Made by a program: the position numbers and the translations under genes | Assembly (NCBI GenBank): GCA_030041335.1 | Contig: JASHOB010000239.1 | Span: 1 to 46,945, forward strand | Source: Alphaproteobacteria bacterium | GTDB taxonomy: Bacteria; Pseudomonadota; Alphaproteobacteria; ATCC43930; CGMCC-115725 | Length of the DNA: 46,945 nucleotides | Direction: 5' to 3' | Part shown: positions 35,734 to 46,945 of the stretch, one piece after another | Layout of the letters: every line of letters starts with the position of its first letter | How positions within the stretch are numbered: position 1 is the first letter of the stretch | Notes under the pieces: generated by a model | What the model saw: only the letters and a program-made list of their open reading frames with translations | Databases searched by the model: none | What the model was told of the DNA's origin: nothing

Positions 35734-37017
35734 ATGCGTCATCTGCTCGGTGCCACGACGTGCGCGATGTTGGTGCTATGGCTGGTTGCGCCGGTCCTCG
35801 CCCAGGAGCTTGGCAATGCCAAGCCGGAAGAGGTCGGCTTCTCCCAGGAACGACTGGATCGCATTACCGACACCCTTAAAGCGGATGTCAAACACCAAGT
35901 CATTCCCGGGGCGACATTGTTGATCGCGCGGCACGACAAGATTGCCTATTTCGAGAAGCTTGGCTCTCTCGACCCCGATAAGAACCTGCCGATGCGCGAC
36001 GACGCAATTTTTCGCATCTTCTCGATGAGCAAGCCGATCACATCGGTCGCAGCCATGATTCTGTTTGAACAGGGCAAGCTGTTCCTTGGCAACCCGATCG
36101 CCAAATACCTGCCGCAATTTACCGACGTGAAAGTGCTGATGCCGAACAAAGATCCGAACGACAGGGGTGACGGCAGTCCCTACCATCTGGTCGCGCCAAA
36201 TCGGGCGCCGACCGTTCAGGATTTGCTCCGGCACACAGCCGGTCTCACCTATGGTTTCTGGAGTGATCCAGTCGCCAAGATGTACGTCGCGGCTGGATTG
36301 TTTGGCGGCAACTATAACAACGCCGAGTTCGTTGACCGAATCGCCAAGCTTCCACTGGCGTTTCAGCCAGGCACCGTATGGAACTACAGTAATGGGGTTG
36401 ACGTACTTGGTCGTGTCATCGAAGTGGTGTCGGGCAAGTCCCTCTATCAATTCGAGAAGGAGAACATCCTCGACCCCCTCGGCATGAACGACACGAGCTT
36501 CTATCTGACCGACCCAGCGAAAAAGGGTCGTATCGCCGAAGGGCTCTCATCGGACAACAAAGTATTTGGCTTTCCGCTGTTCGATCCGACCATTCAAGGC
36601 AAATGGGAGGCGGGCGGTCAGGGCATGGTGTCGACCACGCTCGACTATGCGCGGTTCCTCCAGATGCTATTGAATGGCGGCGTATTCAATGGTCACCGGA
36701 TCCTGTCGCCGGCGACCGTCGCCCTGATGACGCACGATCATCTCGGGAGGATCGGGCCAAGTACCAACCTCTATATACCGGGCCCGGGTACCGGTTTCGG
36801 TCTCGGGTTCGCCGTGCGCCGAAGCGAGGGTCAAGCGACTATCGCGGGCTCGGTGGGCAATTATTTTTGGGGCGGTGCGGCCGGCACTGCGTTCTGGAAC
36901 GATCCAAAGCTGCAGATGCTTGTCGTCTTCATGATCCAGGCCCCGAAACAAGGCTTCCACTACCAGACGCTGTTGCCCAACATGGTCTATGCCGCGCTGA
37001 CCGATCCCAGCAAGTAG
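35734..37017 (+). CDS. Exported serine hydrolase, beta-lactamase/class C fold
   Basis: This 427-residue protein belongs to the beta-lactamase-related (EstB/class C-like) serine hydrolases. A signal peptide occupies about residues 1-24 (LLGATTCAMLVLWLVAPVLA). The catalytic SxxK is S97-M-S-K100 and the second motif is Y218-S-N220, with a C-terminal AGSVGNYFWGG block where class C enzymes have KTG. It could be an esterase, peptidase or lactamase; resistance function is not implied. ATG 35734 follows GGGGGAGG. The next gene, 13 bases on, encodes a close paralogue without a signal peptide, so this is a tandem duplication with likely co-transcription. Confidence 0.9.
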   Translation: MRHLLGATTCAMLVLWLVAPVLAQELGNAKPEEVGFSQERLDRITDTLKADVKHQVIPGATLLIARHDKIAYFEKLGSLDPDKNLPMRDDAIFRIFSMSKPITSVAAMILFEQGKLFLGNPIAKYLPQFTDVKVLMPNKDPNDRGDGSPYHLVAPNRAPTVQDLLRHTAGLTYGFWSDPVAKMYVAAGLFGGNYNNAEFVDRIAKLPLAFQPGTVWNYSNGVDVLGRVIEVVSGKSLYQFEKENILDPLGMNDTSFYLTDPAKKGRIAEGLSSDNKVFGFPLFDPTIQGKWEAGGQGMVSTTLDYARFLQMLLNGGVFNGHRILSPATVALMTHDHLGRIGPSTNLYIPGPGTGFGLGFAVRRSEGQATIAGSVGNYFWGGAAGTAFWNDPKLQMLVVFMIQAPKQGFHYQTLLPNMVYAALTDPSK

Positions 37018-37030
37018 AAGAGGAAACGCT

Positions 37031-38257
37031 ATGTCTCACGCTAATCGTGGTCTCGAGGAAGGCAACCCCGAAGAGGTCGGTTTTTCGCGCGAGCGCCTGC
37101 AGCGCCTCACCGATCACCTCCGTGGTGAGGTCGACGCCGCGCTCATCCCGGGCGCCACCATGTTGATTGCACGTCACGGCAAGATCATCTATTTCGAGGC
37201 AATCGGCTTCCGTGACAAGTCAGTCCAGGCGCCGATGACCAAGGATGCAATCTTCCGCATCTTCTCGATGAGCAAGCCGGTCACTTCCGTCGCCGCCATG
37301 ACATTGGTAGAGCAGGGCAGGCTCTACCTCGAGAATCCCATAGCAGCCTATATCCCGGCCTTTGCCAATGTGAAGGTAGCGGTGCCGCGCAACGATCCAA
37401 TATTTTTTGCGCCGCAAGGCATCGATCTGGTGGCCCCGGTGCGTCCGCCGACCGTGCAGGATCTCCTGCGGCATACTTCCGGCCTCACCTATGGTTTCTT
37501 CGAGACGATCGTGGCCAAGCACTATCGCGAAGCCAACCTGTTTGCCGGCGATTTTACTAACGCTGAATTCGCGGAACGGCTTGCGGCATTGCCGCTCGCC
37601 TTTCAGCCGGGCGCCGGCTGGAACTATAGCCATTCGACGGACTTGCTCGGCCGTGTGGTCGAGGTGGCCTCCGGCAAAGCGCTTTACGAGTGGGAACAGG
37701 AGCAGATCCTGGGTCCGCTCGGCATGTCAGATACGTCCTTTTCGATCGCGGACAAATCAAAACATGGTCGCGTCGCTGAAGCGGCGGCGCCCGATAATCT
37801 TGCCGGCGGCGCCCCGCTCTATGATCCCCGACAACCCGCAAAATCGCAGATGGGTGGGCAGGGGATGCAATCGACTGCGCTCGATTATGCACGTTTTCTG
37901 CAAATGCTGTTGAATGGCGGCTCCTTTGCGGGCAATCGCGTCTTGAGTCCCGAAACCGTTTCATTCATGACGTCGGATCATCTGGGTTTGATCCCACCGG
38001 GCCCGAGCTTCTATTTTCCGGGTGACGGCTATGGCTTCGGGCTGGGCTTTGCCGTGCGCCGGGCGCCCGGACTGGCGAAGCATACAGGCTCGGTAGGCAA
38101 TTTCGATTGGTCCGGCGCCGCTGGCACATTGTTCTGGTGCGACCCTAGGCGGGATTTCTTTGCGCTGTGGATGACACAGGCGCCAATGCAGCTCTTCCGG
38201 CTGCACTCGCTGCTGCCCAATATGGTTTACGCGGCACTGACTGAACCCGAGAAATGA
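37031..38257 (+). CDS. Cytoplasmic paralogue of the upstream serine hydrolase
   Basis: This 408-residue protein has the same fold and near-identical blocks as its neighbour: EEVGFSxERLxRxTD near the N-terminus, S79-M-S-K82 in RIFSMSKP, VQDLLRHTSGLTYGF, Y199-S-H201 in WNYSHSTDLLGR, and HTGSVGNFDWSGAAGT in place of KTG. The start lacks any signal peptide (MSHANRGLEEGNPEEVG), so it should stay in the cytoplasm while its partner is exported. His in the YSH motif, instead of Asn, and HTG instead of AGS, distinguish the catalytic surroundings. A GAGGAAA site precedes ATG 37031. Confidence 0.9.
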   Translation: MSHANRGLEEGNPEEVGFSRERLQRLTDHLRGEVDAALIPGATMLIARHGKIIYFEAIGFRDKSVQAPMTKDAIFRIFSMSKPVTSVAAMTLVEQGRLYLENPIAAYIPAFANVKVAVPRNDPIFFAPQGIDLVAPVRPPTVQDLLRHTSGLTYGFFETIVAKHYREANLFAGDFTNAEFAERLAALPLAFQPGAGWNYSHSTDLLGRVVEVASGKALYEWEQEQILGPLGMSDTSFSIADKSKHGRVAEAAAPDNLAGGAPLYDPRQPAKSQMGGQGMQSTALDYARFLQMLLNGGSFAGNRVLSPETVSFMTSDHLGLIPPGPSFYFPGDGYGFGLGFAVRRAPGLAKHTGSVGNFDWSGAAGTLFWCDPRRDFFALWMTQAPMQLFRLHSLLPNMVYAALTEPEK

Positions 38258-40300: not shown

Positions 40301-41692
40301 TTACAAAACCGCCGAGGCCATGGCGGGCGATTCCGTGAGTGCGTGCGATATGTATTCGAGCGCGTGACGCACGCCTGCGCGCGTGATCGGTCCGCCAAGG
40401 CAGACCCGGACGGCTTCGGGCGGGGTGCCCTCGACGGTAAACGCGTCGCTCGCGACAACGCCAATGCCGGTCGATCGCAGATGTCCGATGAAGGCGGAGC
40501 GCGTCCAACGGGCGGGGAGAGGGAGCCAGATATTGAAGCTCACCCGTCCCCCCTTGAAGCTGTCGGGAGGCAATATTTCAACGGCAAGCGCCTGACGGGC
40601 CGCCGCCTCGGCCCGGATGAAGCGGAGGATCGCGTCGGCGGTACCGTCTTCGATCCAGCGCGTCGCCAGCGCGACGGTTACCGGCGAGGCCATCACCGTC
40701 GCGGCTCGCACGGCGGCCGCGAACGGCCACCCGGCGCGCACGTCGGGCGCCACGACGTAAGCGCACCGCACGCCGGCGCCGATGCACTTGGCGAGGCCGG
40801 CCACGTGCCAGGTGATGTCTGGCGCGATGGCGGCGATGGGTGCTGGACCGTGGACCGGGATGAATCCATACGCATCGTCCTCGATGATCGGCACGCCGTA
40901 CCGCCGGGCGACCTCGGCGATTTCGCCGCGCCGGCGTTGCGAGACGGTCAGCGTCGTCGGGTTCTGCAGCGTCGGATTGAGATAAATGCCCTTGGGCGCC
41001 AGATTCACGCATGCCCGCGCGAACGCGTCCGGATCGATACCTTCATCGTCCAACGGGAGGCCGACGAGATTGAGGCCAAGCTGGGCCGCGAGCGCGCGCG
41101 CACCCGGGTAGGTGATGGCCTCGCACAGGAACACGTCGGTCGGTTTGGCAAGAACCCCCATGATGCCAAGCAAGGCTGGGTGGGCGCCGGGGGTGATGAA
41201 GATCCGCTCCTGCGCCGGGACCAGGCCGCGCCGCCCCAACCACATCGACGCGGCTTCTTTGTCTGCCGGCGATCCGCCGAAGCCCTGGTAGCGCAAGAGT
41301 GCGACGACATCCCGTCCAACCTCCGCCAAGCCGGCCTGCATGCGCTTGATGAGCGCCGGGTCGTCGGGCTCCGGCGGCAAATTCATCGACAGGTCGACCG
41401 CATCGATGCGGCGGTAATCGGGAGACCGCACCGCGGCCTCCCGCTTCGGCCGCGAGCACACGTACGTCCCCTGGCCGACGCGTGATTCAACGAGGCCGCG
41501 CTTCTGTGCCTCGCCGTAGCCTCGTGCGACGGTCGTGAAATCGATCCGCAGGCGGCGCGCCAGTTTGCGCTGGGGCGGCAGACGATCGCCGACCGCGAGC
41601 CGCCCGTTTTTGATGTCAACCGCGATCACATCGGCAATTGCCAGATAGCGCGGCTTGTCGATGCTGGAGAGGTCGGGCGTCCAATCAGTCAT
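40301..41692 (-). CDS. MocR-family PLP-binding transcriptional regulator (GntR type)
   Basis: MocR regulators join a GntR-type winged helix to an aminotransferase fold that binds PLP and senses amines, amino acids or PLP itself. The 463-residue protein has the DNA-binding domain at about 12-75 (LPPQRKLARRLRIDFTTVARGY, GLVESRVGQGTYV) and then the fold-type I domain with NPTLQNPTTLTVSQ (239-252), the acidic EDDAYGF (271-277) that binds the PLP nitrogen, and the PLP lysine K302 in GLAKCIGAGVR. ATG 41692 is the start giving the usual short N-terminus; the frame reaches 41833 but that part lacks conservation. It is divergent from the Nit1C operon with a 305-base shared control region, so it is the prime candidate for controlling it. 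Confidence 0.92.
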   Translation of the reverse strand: MTDWTPDLSSIDKPRYLAIADVIAVDIKNGRLAVGDRLPPQRKLARRLRIDFTTVARGYGEAQKRGLVESRVGQGTYVCSRPKREAAVRSPDYRRIDAVDLSMNLPPEPDDPALIKRMQAGLAEVGRDVVALLRYQGFGGSPADKEAASMWLGRRGLVPAQERIFITPGAHPALLGIMGVLAKPTDVFLCEAITYPGARALAAQLGLNLVGLPLDDEGIDPDAFARACVNLAPKGIYLNPTLQNPTTLTVSQRRRGEIAEVARRYGVPIIEDDAYGFIPVHGPAPIAAIAPDITWHVAGLAKCIGAGVRCAYVVAPDVRAGWPFAAAVRAATVMASPVTVALATRWIEDGTADAILRFIRAEAAARQALAVEILPPDSFKGGRVSFNIWLPLPARWTRSAFIGHLRSTGIGVVASDAFTVEGTPPEAVRVCLGGPITRAGVRHALEYISHALTESPAMASAVL

Positions 41693-41863
41693 GCATTGAA
41701 GCGCGCACCCCGCGCGGCGAATTGATGATAAATGACTGTATAGTGATTGGAGCATTGTGTCACGCGCTGCGTGCTTGAGATCAATCAGGCTCCCGACCGG
41801 CCACGTCCGTTTTGAACTCGGATTGAGCATCACAGTGACGTGTTTTTAGCCAGGCTCTTGATG

Positions 41864-41885
41864 ATTGAATGTATTATTGAATGTA
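41864..41885 (+). repeat. Tandem ATTGAATGTA repeat (operator candidate)
   Basis: Two identical 10-base copies, 41864-41873 and 41876-41885, start 12 bases apart. MocR proteins generally bind direct repeats, so this is the best candidate for the neighbouring regulator's site. It ends 39 bases before the sigma-54 promoter. Confidence 0.55.
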
Positions 41886-41918
41886 CACTATGGGTTTTGA
41901 CGCTTAATTTGACAGGCC

Positions 41919-41938
41919 ATTGATTGGCACATTGATTG
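41919..41938 (+). repeat. Tandem ATTGATTG repeat overlapping the sigma-54 promoter
   Basis: Two copies of ATTGATTG (41919-41926 and 41931-41938), again 12 bases apart, echo the ATTGAATG repeat upstream. They overlap both promoter elements, so a protein bound here would block RNA polymerase. Part of the similarity may simply reflect the promoter sequence. Confidence 0.45.
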
Positions 41939-41940
41939 CA
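41925..41940 (+). promoter_or_regulatory. Sigma-54 (RpoN) promoter of the Nit1C operon
   Basis: TGGCAC at 41925-41930, five bases, TTGCA at 41936-41940: the invariant GG (41926-41927) and GC (41938-41939) are separated by exactly 10 bases, as required for -24/-12 promoters. Transcription would start near 41951, giving a leader of about 47 bases before ATG 41998. Activation requires an AAA+ enhancer-binding protein, which is not encoded in this window. Confidence 0.85.
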
Positions 41941-41997
41941 GATTCCCCTCCGCATCGCGGCACTGCCGCCGATACCCAGAGCAAAACAGGAGGGTTC

Positions 41998-42480
41998 ATG
42001 CCAGCAGTACAGACCGCCGCTCATAAGAAGGGCGATTACTTCGTCGATTACGAGCAGAAGGTGTTCGAGGATGTGAAGGCCAAGCCGGGCGAGAAGGCGT
42101 TGGTCACCTTCCACACGGTTGCGTTCGAAGGCTCGATCGGCTTCGTCAATCTGCTTCAGGCGACACGTCTCAAGCGCAAAGGCTTCGAGACGTCGGTACT
42201 GCTATACGGTCCCGGCGTGACATTGGGGGTGCAGCGCGGCTTTCCCAAGCTCGGCGACGACGCCTTTCCCGGCCATCAGAACTTCAACAACCAGCTGACG
42301 AAGTTCATGGAGGAGGGCGGCAAGGTCTATGCCTGCCGGTTCGCGCTCCAGGCGCTCTATGGCCATGGCGAGCCCTCTCTGATTCCGGGGATCACGCCAA
42401 TCAGCCCGCTCGATGTGCTCGATCTCATCCTGCTACACCGCCGCGACAACGCTTTCATCCTCGACACCTGGACGGTCTGA
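41998..42480 (+). CDS. MSMEG_0572/Sll0783 family protein (Nit1C cluster, first gene)
   Basis: This 160-residue cytoplasmic protein is the conserved first gene of Nit1C clusters; the Synechocystis member (sll0783) is described as a nitrogen-starvation response gene. It looks like a DsrE-type small alpha/beta protein: a strand [20 protein letters not shown] (about 33-52) followed by [21 protein letters not shown], a Cys in [14 protein letters not shown] (about 109) that would sit near the DsrE active-site position, and [12 protein letters not shown] near the end. Its exact function is unknown. ATG 41998 follows AGGAGGG and lies 57 bases after the sigma-54 promoter. The nitrilase starts 34 bases after its stop. 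Confidence 0.92.
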
Positions 42481-42514
42481 ACTGGCGGGCACGGCCTCGG
42501 GAAAGGAAGGCATC

Positions 42515-43567
42515 ATGAGTGCAGGCAAGACGGTCCGCGTTGCGGCGGTGCAGATCGCGCCCGACCTCGACACACCGACGGGCACCGTCGATCGCGTCCT
42601 CGCCGCCGTGGCGGAAGCGGCAGCCAAGGGCGCGAAGCTCGTCGTCTTCCCCGAGACGTTCGTGCCCTGGTACCCGTATTTCGCGTTCGTGCACCCGCCG
42701 GTCATGACCGGCGCGGAGCACGTTCGGCTCTACGAGAACGCGGTCGCTGTACCCGGGCCGGTGACCGCCGCCGTCGCCGGCGCCGCTCGGACCCACGGGA
42801 TCGTGGTGGTGCTGGGCGTCAACGAGCGCGATCACGGCTCGCTCTACAACACGCAGCTCGTCTTCGACGCGACCGGCGAGCTCCTTCTTCGGCGGCGCAA
42901 GATCACGCCGACCTTCCACGAGCGCATGATCTGGGGCCAGGGCGACGGCGCTGGCTTGAAGGTCGTCGACACCGCCGTCGGGCGCATCGGCGCGCTGGCG
43001 TGCTGGGAGCATTACAACCCGCTCGCCCGGTACGCCCTGATGGCGCAGCACGAGGAGATCCATATTGCGCAGTTTCCCGGCTCGCTCGTGGGCCCGATCT
43101 TCGCCGAGCAGATCGAGGTGACGATCCGTCACCACTCGCTCGAGAGCGGCTGTTTCGTAATCAACGCCACGGGATGGCTGCGCGAGGAACAGATCGCAAA
43201 AATCTCGCCCGACGAAAAGCTGCGTCAGGCGATCTCCGGCGGCTGCATGACCGCGATCATCTCGCCGGAGGGCAAGCACCTTGTGCCGCCGCTGACACAG
43301 GGCGAAGGCCTGCTCGTCGCCGACCTCGATATCGGCCTGATCGTCAAACGCAAACGGATGATGGACTCGGTCGGCCATTACGCGCGGCCGGAACTCCTCA
43401 GCCTCACTCTCGACAACCGACCGGCTGCCGCGATGCACGCAACGGCGCCGTGGCCACTCGCCTCCGGGAGCTCCAGCGATGAACACCATGATGCGGACGA
43501 CGCAGACGGCTATGCCGACCGAGGAGCTGATCAACGAGTTGCAGTCCTTCGGAGCGCGCCTCGCTGA
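42515..43567 (+). CDS. Nit1-type nitrilase
   Basis: Nitrilases hydrolyse nitriles to carboxylic acids and ammonia. The 350-residue protein has the Glu-Lys-Cys triad: E47 in [13 protein letters not shown]129 in [12 protein letters not shown], and C163 in [13 protein letters not shown], plus the conserved second Glu E136. The sequence and neighbours match Nit6803 (sll0784) of Synechocystis, a 346-residue enzyme acting on aliphatic and aromatic nitriles. Cluster members are linked to growth on cyanide as a nitrogen source in pseudomonads, where the actual substrate may be a cyanide adduct. ATG 42515 follows GGAAGG. The last 30 codons overlap the radical SAM gene by 89 bases and are rich in Asp/His/Arg, probably not structured. 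Confidence 0.95.
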
Positions 43568-44627
43568 TCCCAAAGCCGGCGCCGCCAGCCGGCGCGGCGG
43601 TGCCGGCCCGTCCGATCACAAGCCGATGACGATCGACGGCATGACCGTCATGATACCGGTGCACACGGCGCCGGCGTTCGAAAGCCCCTATTTGGTCGAC
43701 GACGCGGACGCAGACGGCCGGAGCCGCATCACCCGCAACGGCGTCGCCATCGCCGAGGTGACGTTTCCCCGGCGGCCGCGCTTCTACGATCTCGTCACCG
43801 CCGACGGCATCCCTTATTCCAAGATCGCTGTCCTCCACGGGCGCGACGTGCTCGCGACCACGGTCCTGCAAACGTGCATCCGCTACCAGAGCCGGGCCAA
43901 GACGTGCCGTTTCTGCGCTATCGGCCAATCGCTCAGCGCCGGCCGCACGATCGCGCGGAAAACGCCAGCGCAACTCGCCGAGGTCGCCGAGGCCGCGGTC
44001 CGTCTCGACGGCGTGACGCACATGGTGATGACCACCGGCACGCCACCGGGCGCGGACCGCGGTGCGGCGCTGCTCGCTGAGAGCGCCGCGGCGGTGAAGG
44101 GGGCGGTCGATCTTCCAATCCAGGTGCAGTGCGAGCCGCCGGATGACGATGTGTGGTTCGGCCGGCTGCGCGAGGCCGGCGCCGACGCTCTCGGCATGCA
44201 CATCGAGGTGGTAACCGAACCCGTGCGCGCCCGCATCATGCCGGGCAAGGCGCAGGTGCCGATCGAGCGATATTTCTCGGCCTTCGCGGCGGCGGTGCCG
44301 GTCTTCGGGCGCGGGCAGGTCTCGACCTACATTCTCGCCGGCCTCGGCGATACCGCGGATGACATCCTGGCCGTCTGCGCCCGTCTGGTCGCGATCGGCG
44401 TCTACCCGTTTGTGGTGCCGTTCGTGCCCATCTCCGGTACGCCGCTCGAAAGCCATCCGCCGCCGCCGCCTGCCTTTATGGAATCGATCTTGCGGCCGCT
44501 CGCGCGTCTGCTGGCCGACGGCCGCCTCGGCGCTGCCGAGGTCAAGGCCGGTTGCGCCCGCTGCGGTGCCTGCTCGGCGCTCTCCACCTATGAGCGTGCC
44601 CACGCTCATGGCCAATGGTGTGCCTGA
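43479..44627 (+). CDS. Radical SAM protein, MSMEG_0568 family (Nit1C)
   Basis: This 382-residue protein is the Nit1C radical SAM enzyme (sll0785 counterpart). Its likely cluster-binding motif is unusual: C133-x9-C143-x2-C146 ([15 protein letters not shown]) instead of CxxxCxxC. A SAM-binding-like VMTTGTPPG (about 183-191), a QVQCEPPDD segment (about 216-224) and barrel strands such as [11 protein letters not shown] follow. Three more cysteines, C359-A-R-C362-G-A-C365, near the C-terminus could bind a second cluster. Its reaction is unknown; in the cluster it may act on the acid or amide made by the nitrilase. Starts possible at 43479 (MNTMM), 43488 or 43512 ([10 protein letters not shown]); all overlap the nitrilase. 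The stop overlaps the next start in TGATG. Confidence 0.92.
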
Positions 44628-45163
44628 TGTTCGAGCCCTTCGCGCCCTTCGTTCCGAGCGGCTTCCAGGTCAAGTTCGCGGTCGAACCGTGGGAGCGAAA
44701 GGCTGCCACGGCGCTTCGCCGCGAGGTGTTTTGCCGGGAGCAAGCGGTGTTCGTCGGTGACGACCGCGATGCGATCGACGACATTGCGATCCCGCTGGTG
44801 GCGGTTTCGCTGCTCGGCGTCGCTGCCGACGAGGTCGTGGGCACCGTCCGCATCCACGAGGCCGAGCCCGGGCTATGGTGGGGCTCGCGGCTTGCCGTCG
44901 CGGCCCGCTATCGCAAAGTCGGCGCCCTCGGCGAGGCTTTGATCCGGCTGGCGGTGTCGTCAGCGCACGCGCGCGGATGCAAGCGGTTCCTCGCCAACGT
45001 CCAGAGCCAGAACGCACTCCTGTTCCTTCGGCTGCACTGGCGCACGATCGAAGAGATCGAGCTGTACGGACGGCCGCATCATCACATGGAGGCCGATCTC
45101 GCGTACTACCCACCGTTCGCAGCCCCGGAAGTTGGGTTTCTCGCTTTGCGGAAGGCGGCATGA
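44627..45163 (+). CDS. GNAT-family N-acetyltransferase, MSMEG_0567 family (Nit1C)
   Basis: This 178-residue protein is the Nit1C acetyltransferase (sll0786 counterpart). The GNAT fold is visible in the N-terminal LRREVFCREQAVFVGDDRD block, typical of autoinducer-synthase-like GNATs, then VVGTVRIHEAEPGLWWGSRLAV and the acetyl-CoA-binding YRKVGALGEALIRLAVSSAHARG (about 96-117), followed by RFLANVQSQNALLFLRLHW. The QxxGxG/A motif appears as the basic RKVGALG. The substrate is not known but is presumably an amine made by the cluster. ATG 44627 shares its A with the TGA of the previous gene, and the next gene overlaps its own stop, so translation is coupled across the operon. Confidence 0.9.
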   Translation: MFEPFAPFVPSGFQVKFAVEPWERKAATALRREVFCREQAVFVGDDRDAIDDIAIPLVAVSLLGVAADEVVGTVRIHEAEPGLWWGSRLAVAARYRKVGALGEALIRLAVSSAHARGCKRFLANVQSQNALLFLRLHWRTIEEIELYGRPHHHMEADLAYYPPFAAPEVGFLALRKAA

Positions 45164-46143
45164 CCGCGAACGAGCTCGATCTGCGGTCGCTTGCCGCCGG
45201 GATCCGCGCCGGACCTGGGCTGACGGCCAAGGCAGATATCGGCCTGGTCGCCAGCCGGCTCGGCCTCTCCGGCCGGTCCGTCGTACCGGTCGGCGACGAC
45301 TGCGCCGCCATTCCGGACGGCGAGGGCTATCTGCTGTTCGCGATCGAGGGCTTCATGAACGAGTTTGTCGCGGACGATCCGTGGTTCGCCGGCTGGTGCG
45401 GCGTCATGGTCAATCTCTCTGACATAGCGGCCATGGGTGGACGGCCGCTGGCGGTCGTTGATGCGCTCTGGGCCGAAGACGAAGGCGCGGCGACGCCTGT
45501 TCTCGACGGCCTGCGATCGGCGGCGGAACGCTTCGGCGTGCCGATCGTCGGCGGCCACAGCAATCTCCGCTGCGACCGCGGCCAGCTTTCGGTGGCCGTC
45601 CTCGGTCGCGCCGCCTGCCTGCTTACCAGCTTCGATGCCCAGCCCGGCGACCGGCTCGTCATGGCCGTCGACCTGCGTGGGCGCTACCGCGAACCGTTTT
45701 CGAATTGGGAGGCGGCGACCGACGCTACGGCGGAGCGGTTGCGCCGCGACCTCGATCTGCTGCCGCAGATCGCCGAGGCCGGGCTCTGCCGCGCCGCCAA
45801 GGACATCAGCCAGGGCGGAATCGTTGGCACTGCGGCCATGCTGGCCGAATGCTCAGGCGTGGCGATACAGATCGATGTCAGTGCTGTGCCGAGACCGCCG
45901 CGCGTCGCGCTCGACCGCTGGCTGACCAGCTTTCCGAGCTTCGGCTACTTGCTCGCGGTTGCGCCAGGGCAGGTGCCCGCCGTGTTGCGGCTCTTTTCCG
46001 CGCGCGACATCGCCGTGGCCGAGGTCGGCGCGGTTGCTGAGGGACATGCTATCTCGATCACTAACGGCGGCGAGGCCGAAACCGTCTGGGACTTTGCCGC
46101 GCGACGGCTGCTCGGCTGTGCGTCGGCGGCGATCACGACATGA
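45160..46143 (+). CDS. AIR synthase-like protein, Sll0787 family (Nit1C)
   Basis: This 327-residue protein belongs to the PurM/AIR synthase-like ATP-dependent ligase/kinase superfamily and is the fifth gene of Nit1C clusters. The N-terminal half has the VGDDCAAIPDGEGYLLFAIEGF stretch (about 44-65, with metal/phosphate-binding Asp residues), CGVMVNLSDIAAMGGRPLAVVDAL (about 80-103) and VPIVGGHSNLR (about 127-137). The C-terminal half has AKDISQGGIVGTAAMLAECSG (about 210-230). These correspond to the two PurM domains; related proteins include thiamine-monophosphate kinase, SelD and HypE. The activated substrate is unknown. ATG 45160 overlaps the GNAT stop by 4 bases (ATGA) and the next gene overlaps likewise. 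Confidence 0.92.
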   Translation: MTANELDLRSLAAGIRAGPGLTAKADIGLVASRLGLSGRSVVPVGDDCAAIPDGEGYLLFAIEGFMNEFVADDPWFAGWCGVMVNLSDIAAMGGRPLAVVDALWAEDEGAATPVLDGLRSAAERFGVPIVGGHSNLRCDRGQLSVAVLGRAACLLTSFDAQPGDRLVMAVDLRGRYREPFSNWEAATDATAERLRRDLDLLPQIAEAGLCRAAKDISQGGIVGTAAMLAECSGVAIQIDVSAVPRPPRVALDRWLTSFPSFGYLLAVAPGQVPAVLRLFSARDIAVAEVGAVAEGHAISITNGGEAETVWDFAARRLLGCASAAITT

Positions 46144-46945
46144 ACCGCGGGCTGCGCATCGCGATCCTTGTGCACTCGACCAATCCGCGCGGCGGGGTCG
46201 CGCACGCGCTGGAGCTCGGCGACGCGCTGGCGCGTCTTGGCCACGATGTCGTGGTGCATGCGCCGGACGCGAGGGGAGGTGGGTTCTTCCGCGAGACGGT
46301 GTGCGCCACCGTCTGCATTCCGGCGTCTTTGTGTGGCACCGACATCACCGAGATGGTCGAGGCTCGCGTCGCTGATTACGTACGCTACTTCGAGGATCCG
46401 GGGCATCGCGGGTTCGACGTTTTCCATGCGCAGGACGGCATCTCGGGCAACGCGCTCGCCACGCTGACGGAGCGCAGGCTCATCCCGGGATTTGCACGCA
46501 CCGTCCATCATGTCGATGCGTTCCTTGACCCGAGACTCATGGCCCTGCAGACGCGATCGATTGAAACCGCGGTGGAGCTGTTCGTCGTCAGCCGCCACTG
46601 GCAGCAATACCTCAACGAAAGGTTCGGGCGGGCTTCGGTCGTCGTCGGCAACGGCGTGGACTGCGGGCGCTATTCGCCCGAGCCCGATGGCCGCGAGGAC
46701 GCATTGCGACGACGGCTTGGCCTCGCCACCGGTCCGGTCTTCCTCGCCGTCGGCGGCATCGAGGAGCGCAAGAATGCGATCCGCATCCTCGAGGCCTTCT
46801 GCGCAATCCGGCAACGCCACCCGTCCGCGCGGCTGGTGATCGTCGGCGGCGCCTCCGTCCTCGATCATCACGACTATCAAGCGCGCTTCGCCGCGACGCT
46901 GGCGCAAAGCGCGCTGCCGTCCGGCGCGGTGACGATCATGGGTCC
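46140..46945 (+). CDS. Glycosyltransferase family 4, MSMEG_0565 family (Nit1C), 3' end missing
   Basis: This gene runs off the right edge; 268 codons are visible. It starts at ATG 46140 within the ATGA overlap with the previous gene. The GT-B N-terminal domain opens with RIAILVHSTNPRGGVAHALELGDALARLG (about 5-33), a typical GGxxxH sugar-transferase glycine loop, and includes VFHAQDGISGNAL (about 94-106) and VVVGNGVDCGRYSPEPD (about 174-190). The C-terminal domain starts with FLAVGGIEERKNAIRILEAF (about 204-223), where ERKN is the family phosphate-binding lysine region. MSMEG_0565-family GT4 enzymes are a regular member of Nit1C clusters. A FAD-dependent oxidoreductase (MSMEG_0569 type) normally follows and would be expected just past the window. 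Confidence 0.92.
   Translation, partial: MNRGLRIAILVHSTNPRGGVAHALELGDALARLGHDVVVHAPDARGGGFFRETVCATVCIPASLCGTDITEMVEARVADYVRYFEDPGHRGFDVFHAQDGISGNALATLTERRLIPGFARTVHHVDAFLDPRLMALQTRSIETAVELFVVSRHWQQYLNERFGRASVVVGNGVDCGRYSPEPDGREDALRRRLGLATGPVFLAVGGIEERKNAIRILEAFCAIRQRHPSARLVIVGGASVLDHHDYQARFAATLAQSALPSGAVTIMG

Follow-up and report, generated by a model that had tools for sequence, protein, structure and literature searches.

Nit1C gene clusters are widespread; in Pseudomonas they have been tied to the use of cyanide, in a mycobacterium to resistance against peroxide. The Nit1C cluster of P. pseudoalcaligenes CECT5344 has structural genes homologous to those described here, and the sources describe next to it the gene for NitA, a sigma54-dependent regulator (PMC11049912, PMC8567248). 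The gpr operon of M. smegmatis (MSMEG_0565-0572), also a homologous cluster, is induced by nitrogen limitation via GlnR, ~100-fold according to the introduction of the report and >500-fold according to its results (PMC6039565). In the accessible part of the same report, nitrogen control comes from GlnR, SoxR has a modest negative effect, and no sigma54 is mentioned (PMC6039565). Since induction of the mycobacterial cluster is driven by GlnR, nitrogen control of Nit1C is known in principle.

We analyzed a contig of 46,945 nucleotides from an alphaproteobacterial genome (the window, by which we mean this whole stretch of DNA) that ends in a Nit1C operon. Whereas the AAA+ regulator of the Pseudomonas cluster is encoded locally, none was found near the operon in the window; a MocR-type gene lies there instead, and the part of the activator would fall to NtrC. 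We propose that the operon probably has a two-input promoter, with sigma54 and NtrC conveying nitrogen limitation and a MocR gate conveying a substrate signal.

A conserved sigma54 element upstream of the Nit1C operon

The window contains the following Nit1C genes:

41998-42480, plus strand: first Nit1C gene, MSMEG_0572/Sll0783 family, NitB (TIGR04044, 286 bits; AGGAGG at 41988-41993)
42515-43567, plus strand: Nit6803-family nitrilase, NitC (TIGR04048, 566 bits)
43479-44627, plus strand: MSMEG_0568-family radical SAM protein, NitD (TIGR04043)
44627-45163, plus strand: MSMEG_0567-family GNAT acetyltransferase, NitE (TIGR04045; the start could be 44615)
45160-46143, plus strand: sll0787-family AIR-synthase-like protein, NitF (TIGR04049)
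46140-46945, plus strand: MSMEG_0565-family glycosyltransferase, cut by the contig end (TIGR04047)

All six score over their NCBIfam cut-offs, and they stand in the Nit1C gene order, TIGR04044-04048-04043-04045-04049 followed by TIGR04047. Any further Nit1C genes beyond 46945 would be on another contig. The first gene of the cluster also occurs in 515 plasmid records, of which 374 carry the name Klebsiella. Elsewhere in the window, two adjacent paralogues with an SMSK motif (35734-37017 and 37031-38257) resemble, by reading, class C beta-lactamase-type serine hydrolases.

Upstream of the first gene lie two predicted features:

41925-41940, plus strand: putative -24/-12 sigma54 promoter, TGGCACATTGATTGCA (exact match; 66 of 77 non-cyanobacterial sequences, this one among them, have an element like it)
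41951, plus strand: predicted transcription start, placed by the established sigma54 spacing 12 bases past the -12 GC

TGGCACATTGATTGCA is the sole exact match to TGGCAC-N5-TTGCA in the window (shuffled sequences gave a mean of 0.02 matches, with at least one match in 2 of 100). Its GG (41926-41927) and GC (41938-41939) are ten bases apart, it fits TGGCAC-N5-TTGCW, and 57 bases separate its end from the ATG at 41998. Allowing up to two mismatches yielded 18 matches to TGGCAC-N5-TTGCA in the window against 20.7 expected; as this is the chance level, only the exact match is meaningful. Across the whole genome, TGGCAC-N5-TTGCW matched 10 times and its reversed control 4 times. Other sigma54-type elements in this genome are TGGCACGGCTCATGCT before glnB (L121, C108) and TGGCACACACTTTGCA (L012, C157), which starts 63 bases ahead of a gene whose product, by reading, resembles a binding protein of an ABC transporter. 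A single site is not settled by chance statistics alone, and we accept the sigma54 promoter because it is conserved in relatives.

To assess this conservation, we started from 408 loci that contain a close relative of the first Nit1C gene, kept the best 80, and scored up to 300 bp upstream with one sigma54 weight matrix (written from recall and approximate) at a threshold of at least 12 bits. Among the 77 non-cyanobacterial sequences of this best-80-of-408 sample, window included, 66 have an element on the coding strand, compared with 4 of 77 when the other strand is scored, 1 of 77 for the reversed control, and 2.8% of dinucleotide shuffles; here and below, the counts overstate independence because closely related Bradyrhizobium account for many rows and because repeat pairs overlap in some cases. 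In 63 of these 66 sequences, the first base of TGGCAC is 53-115 bases from the start codon; the best matches of the other three start at -146, -147, and -240. With the same matrix and threshold, the element was found in none of the four cyanobacterial Nit1C loci. A separate phylum-wide draw (L100-L116, with L102, L106, L107, and L114 left out for their opposite orientation) had the element in 10 of 11 readable rows, two of the 11 already counted above, and L110 was without it; in this draw, L115 and L116 score under the family cut-off, and L100 and L109 duplicate parts of L087 and L050. MocR homologues accompany an element of 15.8-18.4 bits on a Klebsiella plasmid, in Paraburkholderia sp. FT54, and in Methylorubrum extorquens CM4; L110 and Sagittula keep MocR with the element absent.

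The genome of the window has one rpoN gene (PF04552, E-value 9.8e-66). We surveyed rpoN in the genomes of 50 of the 80 loci, namely the 15 that have no element and 35 that have one, and found rpoN in 34 of the 35 with the element and in none of the four cyanobacterial genomes. The exception among the 35 is L075, a Ketobacter metagenome bin with an element at 16.7 bits; either the bin is incomplete or mixed, or the element is a relic. The 11 of 77 sequences without an element at the 12-bit threshold all come from genomes in which rpoN was found, which rules out rpoN loss as the cause of the missing element in these 11. Searching the cyanobacterial loci with what we take to be the NtcA consensus gave GTA-N8-TAC in two of the four, one with TA-N3-T behind it, at 0.13 expected per locus; we discarded these boxes as too few.

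An earlier note on this DNA had described the exact TGGCAC-N5-TTGCA with GG-N10-GC spacing at 41925-41940, its distance of 57 bases from the first gene, and inverted repeats at 41761-41773 (CACGCGCTGCGTG) and 41830-41838 (TCACAGTGA). All of these are present in the sequence, and the -24/-12 observation is confirmed. The note had also assigned the element to the nitrilase operon as a sigma54 promoter dependent on RpoN. This reading is well supported by the similar element before the same operon in 66 of 77 sequences, and the distribution of rpoN agrees with it. The same conservation rules out a chance match.

A divergent MocR-type gene and phased direct repeats

The neighbor of the operon on its upstream side is transcribed away from it:

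40301-41692, minus strand: MocR-like regulator, GntR HTH plus aminotransferase-like PLP domain (PF00392, PF00155)

The predicted protein has the GntR HTH, the aminotransferase-like domain, and the PLP lysine by which the MocR subfamily is recognized. EhuR was its best NCBIfam model, at 432.5 bits and under the curated cut-off of 480. MocR homologues with 35-78% identity were found in 73 of the 80 loci (best 80 of 408): divergent and immediately upstream in 63, upstream on the same strand in six, 2.5 kb upstream in one, and ~8 kb downstream in three. No MocR was found at L033, where the search covered only 483 bases upstream. Of 74 extracted proteins, the 72 with more than 380 residues entered an alignment and tree, and the PLP lysine (Lys302 in the numbering of the window protein) is invariant in all 72.

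Upstream of the cluster, the commonest 9-mer is TTGATTGCA, and the forms ATTGATCGC, AATTGACTG, and AATTGAATG are frequent too. These suggest as candidate operator a direct repeat of TTGAnYG with a spacing of 11-13 bases. Such repeats occur in 53 of 74 MocR-bearing loci (sampled from the best 80 of 408), compared with 15 of 74 on the other strand and 0 of 74 reversed, and in none of seven loci that have no such MocR. Of the 66 loci with an element, 48 have a repeat 20-90 bp upstream of it, and 49 of 54 such repeats, some of them overlapping, are 35-37, 46-47, or 59-60 bp from TGGCAC, in steps of ~12 bases. The period-12 direct repeats are likely the MocR operator; two or three direct repeats have been described for 27% of MocR regulons (PMC5320631). 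The window contains three candidates:

41732-41751, plus strand: candidate operator O1, TGACTG...TGATTG, spacing 11 (by the mocR start; overlaps TATACA on the minus strand, a putative promoter element)
41865-41886, plus strand: candidate operator O2, TTGAATGTATTATTGAATGTAC, direct repeat with period 12 (59 bp upstream of TGGCAC)
41920-41940, plus strand: candidate operator O3, TTGATTGGCACATTGATTGCA, direct repeat with period 12 (on the -24/-12 element)

O2 is the only match in the 5.17-Mb genome to a repeat pattern built from the window locus and its relatives. At L034, the nearest same-family relative, the element is at -146 and no phased repeat was found. In three Methyloversatilis loci (L085, L088, and L091), mocR lies ~8 kb downstream of the first gene and the repeats are still upstream of the promoter. 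Five Acetobacteraceae loci (L056, L066, L067, L074, and L078) have mocR upstream in the same orientation as the first gene, and in these we found neither the element nor a strict repeat pair. The divergent MocR gene and the direct repeats form a layer that the earlier note had missed, and they are the more interesting content of the locus.

We infer that the MocR-type PLP regulator (40301-41692) binds the phased repeat at 41865-41886 and, in the window, also the repeat at 41920-41940 over the core promoter, which would make it a second, dedicated input to the operon. As to the direction of its effect, the likeliest role would be to repress or gate RNAP-sigma54 as long as no ligand is bound; this ligand may be cyanide, a nitrile, or their PLP adduct. 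It would probably repress its own gene as well, via 41732-41751.

Strict phasing is compatible with a repressor but also with an activator that works by contact. MocR could instead act as a co-activator, bound in phase and either contacting RNAP-sigma54 or bending the DNA for the NtrC loop; the fixed steps at which 49 of 54 repeats stand from the promoter would be expected of a regulator that makes such a contact, and MpaR, a relative of MocR, is described as driving cyanide-dependent expression (PMC10790758). However, the position of the window's repeat on the -24/-12 element itself suits occlusion, and a P. pseudoalcaligenes mocR mutant is said to make the products of the cio/nit4 cluster, Nit4 included, constitutively, on data that the source calls unpublished (PMC8567248). 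We regard co-activation as possible but rather unlikely, and in what follows we take MocR as a gate.

NtrC as the likely activator

A Sigma54_activat search of the window genome returned two strong and three weak matches; the strong ones are both on contig C180. The two C180 proteins are NtrC (706.3 bits, cut-off 558.6) and NtrX (698.3 bits, cut-off 600). A GAFTGA-type loop is present in NtrC, as GSFTGA; we looked for the GAFTGA stretch in NtrX and did not find it. An NtrX without GAFTGA is unlikely to open RNAP-sigma54, and we ruled it out as the activator on this ground, so that NtrC, encoded on another contig, is the likely activator of the window promoter.

Beside the operon in the window, where the divergent neighbor is MocR-like, we found no AAA+ activator gene and hence no local counterpart of NitA. 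Across the 80 loci (best 80 of 408; 22 of them have <5 kb on at least one side), an NtrC/NtrX search matched at one, weakly and with 28% identity, in a cyanobacterium. Some other AAA+ protein, either a NitA-like activator that we missed or NtrX after all, could drive the promoter, given that the window assembly is a draft of 262 contigs and that NitA, a Fis-family sigma54-dependent protein, adjoins Nit1C in Pseudomonas (PMC11049912). We consider this improbable: the genome is listed as 100% complete, no proteins other than NtrC and NtrX score strongly, and NtrX is the one without GAFTGA.

If NtrC is the activator, a binding site would be expected upstream, and the window has one candidate:

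41760-41774, no strand assigned: NtrC-like palindrome TCAC-N7-GTGC, TCACGCGCTGCGTGC (one mismatch to GCAC-N7-GTGC; 165 bp upstream of TGGCAC)

We take GCAC-N7-GTGC to be the NtrC consensus. In the zone 120-220 bp upstream of TGGCAC, 27 of 66 loci have it with up to one mismatch, 8 of them exactly, and the other 39 have none; GCAC/GTGC with other spacings (2 to 12) was found in the same zone in 2-16 loci with up to one mismatch and in 0-2 exactly. Over 74 rows the count for GCAC-N7-GTGC was 30, whereas base shuffles averaged 3.5 and reached at most 9. The 74-row palindrome count takes in eight extra loci of the phylum-wide draw, one of them a duplicate, while the 66-locus palindrome and repeat counts drop these eight, L082 (short flank), and the four cyanobacteria, keeping 66 of 76. 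An enrichment of GCAC-N5-GTGC (62 of 87 rows with up to one mismatch, the rows being the window, 76 of the 80 loci, and ten loci of the phylum-wide draw) was discarded, as TGGCAC-N5-TTGC itself produces the match. For the other sigma54-type elements of the window genome, a scan of some one-mismatch forms found no NtrC-like site before glnB, and a similarly partial scan found a one-mismatch site only ~370 bp upstream of the transporter-gene element. The case for NtrC sites appears good for the group and moderate for the window candidate.

The earlier note had placed the gene for the activator elsewhere in the genome, which fits the location of both strong matches on C180. It had also seen no NtrC consensus and suggested another protein, a suggestion that we do not follow, as NtrC is the only GAFTGA-type activator found and an NtrC-like palindrome stands in the zone where such palindromes are enriched in relatives. 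Of the two inverted repeats that it offered as activator sites, the one at 41761-41773 is enclosed by TCACGCGCTGCGTGC as the core of the palindrome, and the one at 41830-41838 fits neither motif found, the NtrC-like palindrome or the MocR repeat.

We infer NtrC binding as follows. The Nit1C operon would be transcribed from the sigma54 promoter at 41925-41940; nitrogen limitation would activate NtrC, which would loop from upstream to RNAP-sigma54; and the enhancer probably includes the palindrome at 41760-41774, so that the operon would need nitrogen limitation.

Separability of the element and the MocR layer

The sigma54 element and the MocR layer appear to be separable. L113 has an adjacent PAS-AAA+ activator with GAFTGA and keeps the element as TGGCACAGCCTTCGCT (TGGCAC-N5-TCGCT), with neither a MocR match nor repeat units in its 1.5-kb flank. 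Conversely, L080 and L093 have MocR and single repeat units, no strict pair, and no element that we could find.

Loci of the latter kind raise the question of whether MocR alone might control the operon from a sigma70 promoter, the sigma54 element being a relic. L071, L080, and L093 keep MocR without the element in genomes that have rpoN, as this reading would allow, but they are the exceptions in the supported MocR clade that holds the window, where 27 of 30 rows have the element, and we think the reading very unlikely. That the window's -24/-12 element is a by-product of the MocR repeat (TTGATTGG...TTGATTGC, period 12 giving GG-N10-GC) and another promoter drives the operon is most improbable: the element does lie inside a period-12 repeat, and 14 of 66 loci have exactly the ATTGA spacer, namely the window and loci of Methylocapsa, Bradyrhizobium, and some further Hyphomicrobiales, but Rhizobium and the beta- and gammaproteobacteria keep the element with unrelated spacers, on which we rejected the idea, L113 keeps it without MocR or repeat units, and the four cyanobacteria, without rpoN, are also without the element.

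For the two-input promoter, what the sequences supply is the motif and its conservation, rpoN, NtrC, the lack of another strong activator match, the co-occurrence of MocR and the repeats, and the phasing of these repeats.

Origin of the locus

Of 61 genomes searched, many of them incomplete, two have the first Nit1C gene, one of the two being the genome of the window. In the MocR tree, the window protein pairs with that of Methylocapsa (support 100/98) in a mostly Hyphomicrobiales group, far from the MocR of L034, the sole same-family relative. The locus at 40301-46945, regulator included, was likely gained horizontally. The tree also contains two odd placements. The MocR of L063, titled Frankia sp. 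RB7, is nested in Bradyrhizobium and probably comes from a mislabelled or mixed assembly; that of L023, titled Rhodospirillales, falls beside the Burkholderiales locus L026 and was either misbinned or transferred.

Comparison with known systems

The layout of L113, with its adjacent PAS-AAA+ activator, resembles that described for NitA in Pseudomonas (PMC11049912). For the MocR layer, a parallel is the cio/nit4 region of P. pseudoalcaligenes, in which mocR is divergent from nitrilase and cyanide genes, as in the window (PMC8567248). This is, however, a different nitrilase cluster from that of the window, and the accessible part of the source mentions no sigma54 element (PMC8567248). P. aeruginosa MpaR is described as a PLP-domain GntR regulator that responds to cyanide, with a PLP-cyanide adduct hypothesized as the signal; unlike the window MocR, it controls ccoN4 rather than Nit1C, has a palindromic motif, and drives expression (PMC10790758). 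EhuR and EnuR are MocR-type regulators of ectoine genes, and although EhuR is the best model for the window protein, the score is under the cut-off and the neighbor genes differ.

To our knowledge, a MocR-type regulator on a sigma54 promoter is unusual, and in the open-access literature that we searched we found no description of MocR or NtrC control of Nit1C. We offer a broader reading tentatively and with some doubt: MocR might act directly on a sigma54 promoter by way of repeats in helical phase and sense cyanide or a nitrile in the form of a PLP adduct, and Nit1C might be an AND gate across Proteobacteria whose regulators have been swapped between lineages (NitA, NtrC with MocR, GlnR) while nitrogen control was kept. 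If the two-input design is true, it recurs in many genera, names two regulators (NtrC and MocR), and predicts that Nit1C is on when cells are both nitrogen-poor and exposed to cyanide or nitriles. Compared with the Pseudomonas and mycobacterial systems, the locus would be a regulatory variant of a known cluster, and what is new is the proposed means of nitrogen control.
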